From: a virus
Strand: one strand, 5' to 3'
IMG/VR virus record: IMGVR_UViG_3300030109_000601
Location: 1 to 37,998 of that record
Length of the DNA: 37,998 nucleotides
Shown here: piece by piece, positions 2,653-5,064 of the stretch
Layout: every line of letters starts with the position of its first letter
How positions within the stretch are numbered: the first letter of the stretch is position 1
Notes under the pieces: generated by a model
Databases searched by the model: none
Seen by the model: only the letters and a program-made list of their open reading frames with translations
What the model was told of the DNA's origin: nothing
Made by a program: the position numbers and the translations under genes

Positions 2653-4232
2653 AAACTAACCAACCATGTCCGGATTGTGGAAGCAGTGATGCTTTAGCAA
2701 TCAACGAAGACGGAAGCACTAAGTGTTTTAGTTGTGAAGCCTTTAATCCTAAAGGTGGTGGACAAGAGAAACTAAACCCTACTATGAAAAAACAAAATAA
2801 CTTTGAATATTTAAAAGGGGAAGCCTCGCCCCTTCCGGCAAGAGGCATACACTTGGACACTTGTAAAAAATACAATTACAAAGTAGGCAAGAACGAAAAA
2901 GGCCAATGGGTACACATTGCAAACTACATTAATGATGATGGCAAGATAATTGGTCAGAAGATTAGAACTGAAGGTAAAGATTTCCAGATTCGTGGAAAAA
3001 TATCTCATAGGTTTTATGGTCAGCATTTGTGGAAGAATGGAGGCAACAAACTTATTGTAGTTGAGGGCGAAATAGATTGCCTAACAATGAGTCAACTTCA
3101 GGCCAACAAATACCCCTGTGTTTCCATAAGTCAAGGCGTGGCTTCGGCTAAGACTTTGTTTAAGAAAAACATTCCTTGGCTTGAAAGTTTTAAAGAAGTC
3201 ATACTGATGTTTGATGAAGATGAACATGGAAGGAAAGCTGTTAAAGAGTGTGTGTCTATACTTAAACCTGGAAAAACTTTTGTTGCAAGGCTATCCGGTA
3301 AAGACCCTAACGATTTACTTATGCAGGGTAAAGGGGAAGAAGTTGTTAAGGCTATGTGGGATGCCAAAAAATGGAGTCCTGCAAATATCATAAATGGTGC
3401 AGATTTATTTGAACGTATATCTACTATCAAAAGCAACGACTCAATCCCTTACCCTTTTCCTGGATTAAATTCTAAAACTAAAGGTTTAAGAAAAGGCGAA
3501 ATCTCTCTGTTTTGTGCAGGTAGTGGTGTCGGTAAGTCGCAAGTATGTAGGCAGATTGCTCACCATTTACTGACAACTACTGACAAGAAAGTAGGATACA
3601 TAGCATTGGAAGAGAACATAGAGCGATCCGGCCAAGGTATCTTAGGTTTAGAGTTAGGACGGCTTTTACATTTAGATCCTGTAGAGATCGATGAAAAGTA
3701 TCATGAAGCCTATGACAAGACTGTAGGCTCTGGAAGGTTTTTTGTTTATGACCATTGGGGTTCGATGAACACTGAACAACTTCTTAACCACATCCGTTAC
3801 ATGGTTCAAGCGATGGGTGTTGAGTACGTGGTGTTAGACCATATCAGTATTGTTGTTAGTGGTATGAAAGAGTCTGAAATGGGCAACGAAAGAAAAGCTA
3901 TTGATGTACTGATGACGCAACTTAGAGCTTTGGTTGAAGAAAGTAACTTCGCTTTAATATTAATCAGTCACCTTAAAAGACCGGAGGGTAATAAAGGTTT
4001 TGAAGATGGATTGATGCCTAACTTATCGGCACTCAGGGGGAGTCAGAGTTTAAGTCAGTTATCAGACATTGTTTGTGCTTTATCTAGAAATTTACAGGGA
4101 GAAGAAAAAAACATTACGAAATTAAGTGTTCTTAAAAACCGATTTAGTGGGGAGACTGGTTTAGCGTGTTCGTTAGAGTTCTGCCCCTTCACAGGAAAAC
4201 TAACAGAAGTAGAAGTCAAAGGAGAATTTTAA
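2634..4232 (+). CDS. Bifunctional DNA primase-helicase (T7 gp4-like)
   Basis: Hexameric replicative helicase fused to a primase, 532 aa (T7 gp4A is 566). The N-terminal zinc-binding domain has C12, C15, C31 and C34, needed for primer-site recognition. A TOPRIM primase core follows, with VVEGEIDCLT (Glu near 144) and MFDEDEHGRKA (Asp 194 and 196). The RecA-like SF4 helicase domain has Walker A GSGVGKS (Lys 301) and Walker B VVLDHI (Asp 402), then ILISHLKRPEG and the arginine-finger region LSVLKNRFSGETG near the C-terminus. All activities look intact. Its TAA overlaps the ATG at 4232, and its last codons contain the AAAGGAGA that serves the next two reading frames. Confidence 0.96.
   Translation: MDTSFIETNQPCPDCGSSDALAINEDGSTKCFSCEAFNPKGGGQEKLNPTMKKQNNFEYLKGEASPLPARGIHLDTCKKYNYKVGKNEKGQWVHIANYINDDGKIIGQKIRTEGKDFQIRGKISHRFYGQHLWKNGGNKLIVVEGEIDCLTMSQLQANKYPCVSISQGVASAKTLFKKNIPWLESFKEVILMFDEDEHGRKAVKECVSILKPGKTFVARLSGKDPNDLLMQGKGEEVVKAMWDAKKWSPANIINGADLFERISTIKSNDSIPYPFPGLNSKTKGLRKGEISLFCAGSGVGKSQVCRQIAHHLLTTTDKKVGYIALEENIERSGQGILGLELGRLLHLDPVEIDEKYHEAYDKTVGSGRFFVYDHWGSMNTEQLLNHIRYMVQAMGVEYVVLDHISIVVSGMKESEMGNERKAIDVLMTQLRALVEESNFALILISHLKRPEGNKGFEDGLMPNLSALRGSQSLSQLSDIVCALSRNLQGEEKNITKLSVLKNRFSGETGLACSLEFCPFTGKLTEVEVKGEF
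4218..4225 (+). promoter_or_regulatory. Shared Shine-Dalgarno for two overlapping start codons
   Basis: AAAGGAGA inside the end of the helicase gene is one of the strongest ribosome-binding sequences in this half of the window. It lies 6 bases before ATG 4232 and 8 bases before GTG 4234. Both distances are workable, so one site could start two different proteins two bases apart. In the methyltransferase frame a stop at 4210-4212 leaves GTG 4234 as the only start upstream of motif I. Confidence 0.7.
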
Positions 4233-5044
4233 TGTGGATACTTCCAAAGCAACTATTAGACACCTTTCAATCTGCTCCGGTTACGAAGGAATTGGACTCG
4301 GCCTTAGAAGAATCTTCCCGAATATTACAGAAGTCGCTTTTCTGGAGAGGGAAGCTTATCCCTTGGGAGTCTTGGTTAAGGAAATGGAAAAAGGGCGGTT
4401 GGCTCCGGCTCCTATTTGGACGGATATTGCTACCTTTCCATTCGAAACGTTTCGAGGAAAAGCTCAAATCTGGAGCGCAGGATTTCCTTGTACCCCCTTC
4501 AGTGTTGGTGGCCTTCGCAAGTCGGACAGAGACGAACGACATTTGTACCCCTTCATCGAAGATGGCATTAGAAAGTGTAGACCTCCCATTGTTTTCTTGG
4601 AAAATGTCGAAGGAATCATCACAACAAAGACAAGTGAAGGAGAACCTGTTCTCAAATTTATCCTTAGAAGGTTGGAATCGTTGGGTTACATTAGTGAGGC
4701 AGGAATATTCTCAGCGTCTGAATGCGGAGGAGGCCACCAGAGAAAAAGAGTATTTGTATTGGCCTACGCCCACAGCGAGGGACTGGAAGGATGGGACAGC
4801 GAAAGCTTGCAAGAATACTCCAGTCAACTCTCTTCTGGGGAGGACGGTACACCACGCAAAGTACCTGCCCCAATCAACGAACCTCAACACCTTTGGGAAA
4901 GACCAAGAACTTTACCAACTAAATCCTGCGTGGACGGAACAACTTTTAGAGTTGCCGACCGGACTGACCGAACTCGTCTCTTGGGAAACGGAGTGTTTCC
5001 GAGAACAGCAGAAAGAGCCTTCAGAATACTCTCAAAAAAATTAA
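4232..5044 (+). CDS. Putative overlapping protein encoded in an alternative frame of the methyltransferase gene
   Basis: An open frame of 270 codons lying one frame off the cytosine methyltransferase over almost its whole length. It begins at the canonical ATG at 4232 (TAATG overlap with the helicase stop), 6 bases after a strong Shine-Dalgarno, which is a better start than the GTG of the methyltransferase. The product does not look like random shadow: it is Trp-rich, with MWILPKQL at the N-terminus, MSKESSQQ near 125, WVTLVRQEYSQRL at 151-163, WPTPTARDWKDGT at 177-189 and LNPAWTEQLL at 230-239. I recall WPTPTARDWK and LNP-W-E-L phrases from phage hypothetical proteins found beside Dcm-type methyltransferases, but this is unverified memory. 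The C-terminal SWETECFREQQ is the +1 reading of the methyltransferase motif LLGNGVFPRTA. Function is unknown. Alternatively it is a long fortuitous open frame. Confidence 0.6.
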   Translation: MWILPKQLLDTFQSAPVTKELDSALEESSRILQKSLFWRGKLIPWESWLRKWKKGGWLRLLFGRILLPFHSKRFEEKLKSGAQDFLVPPSVLVAFASRTETNDICTPSSKMALESVDLPLFSWKMSKESSQQRQVKENLFSNLSLEGWNRWVTLVRQEYSQRLNAEEATREKEYLYWPTPTARDWKDGTAKACKNTPVNSLLGRTVHHAKYLPQSTNLNTFGKDQELYQLNPAWTEQLLELPTGLTELVSWETECFREQQKEPSEYSQKN

Positions 5045-5064
5045 CAAAAAGAATAAAGAAATGA
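4234..5064 (+). CDS. DNA (cytosine-5)-methyltransferase, Dcm type
   Basis: Transfers a methyl group from S-adenosylmethionine to C5 of cytosine, probably shielding phage DNA from host restriction. The 276-aa product has the ordered motifs of the family: I at 12-24 (SICSGYEGIGLGL), IV GFPCTPFS with catalytic Cys 86, VI FLENVEG (Glu-Asn-Val at 123-125), VIII HQRKRVFVLA (168-177), a short recognition region around 180-235, and X LLGNGVFP (249-256). It starts at GTG 4234, since an in-frame stop at 4210-4212 and motif I at residue 12 leave no alternative. It overlaps the polymerase ATG by 4 bases. G+C is visibly higher here than in neighbours (30 and 29 of 60 in the lines at 4381 and 4441, against 22 of 60 at 5581). 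That fits either horizontal acquisition or constraint from dual coding. Target site cannot be read from sequence. Confidence 0.93.
   Translation: MDTSKATIRHLSICSGYEGIGLGLRRIFPNITEVAFLEREAYPLGVLVKEMEKGRLAPAPIWTDIATFPFETFRGKAQIWSAGFPCTPFSVGGLRKSDRDERHLYPFIEDGIRKCRPPIVFLENVEGIITTKTSEGEPVLKFILRRLESLGYISEAGIFSASECGGGHQRKRVFVLAYAHSEGLEGWDSESLQEYSSQLSSGEDGTPRKVPAPINEPQHLWERPRTLPTKSCVDGTTFRVADRTDRTRLLGNGVFPRTAERAFRILSKKLTKRIKK

Follow-up and report, generated by a model that had tools for sequence, protein, structure and literature searches.

Results

The methyltransferase locus and its two overlapping frames

The stretch of DNA analysed here, called the window, comes from a T7-like phage and covers the 37,998 bases of its source virus record. 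Two long open reading frames lie on the plus strand in a cassette of 833 bases. The alpha frame (positions 4234 to 5064, 276 aa) starts with GTG at 4234-4236 and is assigned to the catalytic large subunit of a C5-methyltransferase, while the beta frame (4232 to 5044, 270 aa) starts with ATG at 4232-4234 and is proposed to code for the small subunit. The initial annotation had described two long same-strand frames whose starts overlap as ATGTG behind one ribosome-binding site, and the coordinates bear this out: the frames have 811 bases in common, with beta in +1 relative to alpha and covering 98% of it. The site common to both starts, AAAGGAGA (4218 to 4225, plus strand), places its GGAG 7 bases from the ATG of beta and 9 from the GTG of alpha. 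At its 5' end the cassette shares bases with the stop codon of the preceding primase/helicase gene (TAATG at the beta start), and at its 3' end with the start codon of the DNA polymerase gene (ATGA at the alpha stop). Likewise, the raised G+C across the overlap and the Trp-rich second product noted at the outset were found again, with a G+C content of 46.7% versus 39.2% in the window and 38.8% and 39.3% in the flanking genes, and with 13 Trp in the 270 residues of beta versus 4 in the 276 of alpha.

The surrounding genes follow the order of a T7-like replication module (RNA polymerase, Gp2.5-like SSB, endonuclease, primase/helicase, methyltransferase, DNA polymerase, exonuclease). No restriction endonuclease partner, as expected of a type II restriction-modification system, was found beside the methyltransferase, its neighbours being the primase/helicase and the DNA polymerase, and the endonuclease at 2188-2652 is of the phage replication-module type. 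If its first TTG were used, the frame of this endonuclease would overlap the end of the Gp2.5-like SSB gene (1710-2315) by more than 100 bases; the gene probably begins further downstream.

Alpha is a cytosine-C5 methyltransferase chain lacking motif IX

Alpha matches PF00145 over residues 9-189 as well as the profile phrog_363, and its predicted structure matches M.HhaI and M.HaeIII, with an AdoMet-dependent fold. The motifs of C5-methyltransferases are found in order on the plus strand, all read from the translation and conserved in relatives: motif I (LSICSGYEGIG, 4264 to 4296), the AdoMet site, conserved in 40 relatives; motif IV (GFPCTPFS, 4480 to 4503) with the catalytic Cys in PC; motif VI (ENV, 4600 to 4608); motif VIII (HQRKRVF, 4735 to 4755), which is QxRxR-like; and motif X (LGNGVFP, 4981 to 5001) with GN. 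The gene had initially been taken for a Dcm methyltransferase with every motif; however, motif IX is absent from the alpha chain, and a profile of motif IX drawn from other families matches no alpha (best score -0.1 bits).

Motif IV reads PCT in the window and in three other genes versus PCQ in 66 relatives, and motif IX of beta is also at its most degenerate in the PCT clade. Because of these two deviations, the window's own copy may be altered in activity.

Beta carries a motif IX-like block

The same motif IX profile matches 40 out of 40 betas with a median of 26 bits, the window's own beta being the weakest match of the set (6.4 bits). This motif IX-like block, LNPAWTEQLLELPTGLTEL (also given as LNPAWTEQLLELPTGL), lies at 4919 to 4975 on the plus strand and was located both by this profile and by the alignment of relatives, in which the best conserved C-terminal block of beta reads LNPxWVEQLMGLPVGWT. 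In most relatives beta ends inside or near motif X of alpha, in line with the initial observation that the SWETE of beta is the shifted reading of that motif.

No family match for beta was obtained in Pfam or NCBIfam. It matches phrog_1008, 'DNA methyltransferase', with an E value of 5.5e-10 for the window, and all 40 relatives gave significant matches; a comparison with hhalign (probability 99.3%, 225 columns) also shows homology to the betas of enterobacterial phages. Homologues of beta, a search for which had been proposed as a check, were found in hundreds of phages and bacteria. The AlphaFold model of beta alone was poor (pLDDT 49), and when solved structures (PDB) were searched by sequence, neither beta nor its motif IX block gave a meaningful match or reached a methyltransferase; in the alignment of the block used for this search, one residue behind the block was entered in the S-H1 row in place of a stop.

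The N-terminal part of beta is long and conserved (MWILPK...). Some relative loci were retrieved by queries with beta peptides that included the N-terminus MWILPKQL; the identity of the first eight codons and of ATGTGG among those loci is therefore partly imposed by the query. The relative C75C1, the 80 phage loci fetched by pattern (see below) and other loci are free of that bias, and C75C1, which was found without the N-terminal pattern, reads MIILPK... at the start of beta.

Both frames remain open and are under selection

Relatives of both frames were found by tblastn and locus searches. In these, the +1 relation is kept, both frames are open over nearly their full length, and the beta stop lies 5-86 bases from the alpha stop, with the exception of the distant phage S72. 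The initial annotation had regarded stops in the second frame among relatives as evidence against it; none was found, and both frames are open in all 45 non-redundant genes. For each of these genes, the alpha protein was kept and its synonymous codons were redrawn in 400 trials, asking how often the beta frame stays open as far as the observed beta stop. With the gene's own codons, a mean of 2.6 to 10.9 beta-frame stops is expected across the 45 genes, and beta was open in none of the 400 trials for 40 genes and in 1 to 14 trials for the five others. Under the codon usage of the neighbouring genes, 12-21 stops are expected and the frame was open in none of the trials; for the alpha of the window, this usage gave a mean of 13.5 stops and 0 of 400 open trials. 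Even the first 110 codons of the window gene, taken alone, left beta open in only one of 2000 shuffles.

The third codon base of alpha is the second base of beta. Synonymous variability, which the initial annotation had proposed as a check, is suppressed in alpha at this position in comparison with the neighbouring genes, and both frames are under selection. In eight relatives with 74-80% alpha identity, third positions accounted for 0.37-0.43 of the alpha changes with respect to the window versus 0.50-0.77 in the helicase and polymerase genes on either side in those contigs. Between alpha residues 191 and 262, this share fell to 0.18-0.24 in most of the close relatives; over this last third it is beta that is conserved, while alpha drifts. 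Changes altering both proteins made up 0.24-0.33 of the total, where 0.50 would be expected under neutrality, and those silent in both were about three to four times enriched. The effect is also present, and milder, in the N-terminal 110 codons. Controls for synonymous sites consisted of the close relatives and a few columns beyond the beta stop, where the mean was 0.57 versus 0.79 (n = 4 only). On the shuffles and the substitution classes, a chance open frame was rejected. These results indicate that the beta frame is a real gene under selection.

The middle of the genes varies by dual-coded units

Units with a W-x-T-P reading in beta and an L-(A/G/V)-N-(S/T) reading in alpha make up the variable middle, 0-7 of them per gene. 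The copy of the window has a single such module, the WPTPTARDWKDG block of beta (4760 to 4795, plus strand; from the translation and the module count). Rows of units can be seen, for example, at L001:3001-4436 and in relatives such as L045 and L087. With the number of units the mean length of beta rises from about 285 to 488 aa, and the longest pair has an alpha of 518 aa and a beta of 502 aa (L045). Our guess is that the units are target-recognition modules, gained and lost while both frames stay open.

Occurrence in phages and bacteria

Phages were surveyed with a single pattern of motif IV, G[FY]PCQ[PD][FI]S, which is blind to beta. The motif IX block was in the +1 frame in 73 of the 80 phage loci and in frame 0 in none, a share which is no census since the loci are the best matches to one query. 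In two loci the block is in the other frame and lies where alpha ends or past that point; the remaining five have no block and an alpha that is short or cut. A tally of 81 loci adds to these 80 the phage Graduation, the one in-frame case. A short alpha or a motif IX block in an unexpected frame was noted at L113, L116, L124, L133 and L155, and at L153 and L172, possibly as a result of insertions, frameshifts or assembly errors.

When bacterial genomes were searched with a beta pattern, 153 loci were confirmed; of the 80 that were kept, 69 have a complete alpha in the frame expected for it. The remaining loci have an alpha as well, mostly one whose motifs vary, or else a broken one. Among these 80 loci, fetched by beta alone, no free-standing beta gene was seen.

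The layout is present in epsilon15, N15 (gene 58), K1G, Pseudomonas phage PMG1 and Klebsiella and Salmonella phages, and further in the Paenibacillus phages Bloom and Lilo, cyanophage S-H1, Bacteroides phage BU730P1 and Mycobacterium phage Rhynn. Both frames are annotated in the records of K1G and Bloom, and one frame in the other named records. In Pseudomonas phage PMG1 (L102:1273-2034) and in phiKX1 (L003:1770-2378), beta alone is annotated, as a hypothetical protein, and the catalytic alpha was missed. A search confined to open-access papers gave none that describes the breadth of the dual-coding arrangement.

A single-chain relative joins the two families

In Mycobacterium phage Graduation, gp47 (L105:1489-2316) is one chain of 275 aa that matches the alpha family over its length, while its residues 187-273 match the beta family and EFYEWLMGLPRGWVT stands directly before motif X. 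The match between A1 and Graduation alone is short (19 columns). As the beta block is what this single-chain enzyme has just before motif X, it corresponds to motif IX. Upstream in the gp47 locus, the +1 frame still reads LLPTPLARDSKG, which, by its sequence, resembles a beta remnant or a fusion product.

Discussion

The two frames of the cassette are very probably the genes for the two chains of a heterodimeric cytosine-C5 DNA methyltransferase. By the precedent of M.EcoHK31I, whose motif architecture is equal, alpha and beta would form one enzyme; the association of the chains, the choice of start and the activity, target and role of the enzyme are inferred. Ribosomes at AAAGGAGA would start either at the ATG of beta or, two bases on, at the GTG of alpha, and the overlapping starts behind one ribosome site would tie the supply of both subunits together. 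The contribution of beta would be motif IX and, probably, some of the surface for target recognition, and only the pair would make a full enzyme. Orphan phage methyltransferases protect phage DNA from host restriction, and the enzyme of the window would likewise methylate the phage DNA and shield it. The dual-coding cassette proposed in the initial annotation is upheld by the open frames, the selection on both and the homologues, and its guess of a methyltransferase partner fits a beta that carries the motif IX which alpha is without.

Other readings of the second frame have to be weighed. The raised G+C over the overlap might suggest that the open beta frame is a by-product of the composition or codon use of alpha; however, shuffles of the codons of alpha that keep the G+C still give about 3-11 stops, and over the last third conservation is higher in beta than in alpha, which leaves this explanation a negligible probability. 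It is unlikely, too, that beta has another job (antirestriction, antitoxin-like or regulatory) and merely overlaps the methyltransferase gene. The long conserved N-terminal part with no known function would suit such a protein, but the C-terminal block is just what alpha lacks and, in Graduation gp47, forms part of the single chain at the corresponding place, and beta does not stand free in any of the 80 bacterial loci; for an antirestriction factor or an antitoxin-like protein, both suggested initially, nothing was found.

Since the order of the motifs along the DNA is that of a single-chain enzyme, a +1 ribosome shift after motif VIII might instead join the N-terminal part of alpha to the C-terminal part of beta, which would then not be a separate protein. 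Against this, beta has its own ATG and ribosome site, and its N-terminal half, needless for a late shift, is open and under selection; moreover, a full enzyme would need a second shift back because motif X is in the frame of alpha. We consider such a shift quite improbable and favour the heterodimer encoded by two co-starting frames.

More tentatively, same-strand dual coding may be the normal state of a large clade of phage cytosine methyltransferases, of which the T7-like branch of the window has co-starting, coextensive genes; in this branch tandem modules (0 to 7) might make up target recognition, and their gain and loss with both frames intact might then lead to changing or multiple specificity, a proposal that we regard as possible and still somewhat doubtful. 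Long same-strand dual coding is considered rare in double-stranded DNA phages, and gene callers, which keep one frame, hide it. A very common phage enzyme seems to have two subunits, the second of which is missed or mislabelled in annotation. Recoded cloning of 'the methyltransferase gene' would destroy beta and give a dead enzyme. The natural series from a single chain through partial overlap to full overlap of 0.8 to 1.5 kb may show how overlapping genes arise and last.

M.EaeI is heterodimeric like M.EcoHK31I, whose beta of 176 aa lies inside an alpha of 309 aa; Lee et al. reportedly found in 1995 that this small subunit is read in another frame of the gene for the large one. M.EcoHK31I is a heterodimeric YGGCCR cytosine-C5 methyltransferase, and the likeness lies in its described motif layout: the large polypeptide holds motifs I-VIII and X, and the small one motif IX only (PMC3404938). 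In our case, motifs I, IV, VI, VIII and X are in alpha and motif IX is in beta (weak in the beta of the window, at 6.4 bits), and in the window the proposed small subunit is read in a different frame of the large-subunit gene. Unlike in M.EcoHK31I, the beta of the window (270 aa) is nearly coextensive with alpha, shares the ATGTG co-start and has a conserved N-terminal part, and the beta of relatives lengthens by tandem dual-coded modules. Furthermore, M.EcoHK31I belongs to a restriction-modification system, whereas no endonuclease partner was seen for the cassette of the window.

K1G gp34/gp35 and Bloom BLOOM_56/57 (in each pair both frames are annotated as DNA methyltransferase), epsilon15 and N15 gene 58 show the same +1 relation, with motif X in alpha and an LNP...LMG block in beta; in contrast to the window, their beta has an internal start within alpha and overlaps a smaller part of it (693 of 825 bases in K1G). 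M.AquI is also a C5-methyltransferase of two polypeptides, although its small subunit has motifs IX and X, while in the window motif X is in alpha and not beside motif IX in beta. Graduation gp47 matches the families of both alpha and beta and differs in being one chain with IX and X in the same frame. The cassette is a variant of the M.EcoHK31I kind, an arrangement known from one old restriction system and yet common in phages, where usually one protein is annotated; a few phages already have it annotated as two genes, and it is the full overlap and the wide occurrence that are surprising.
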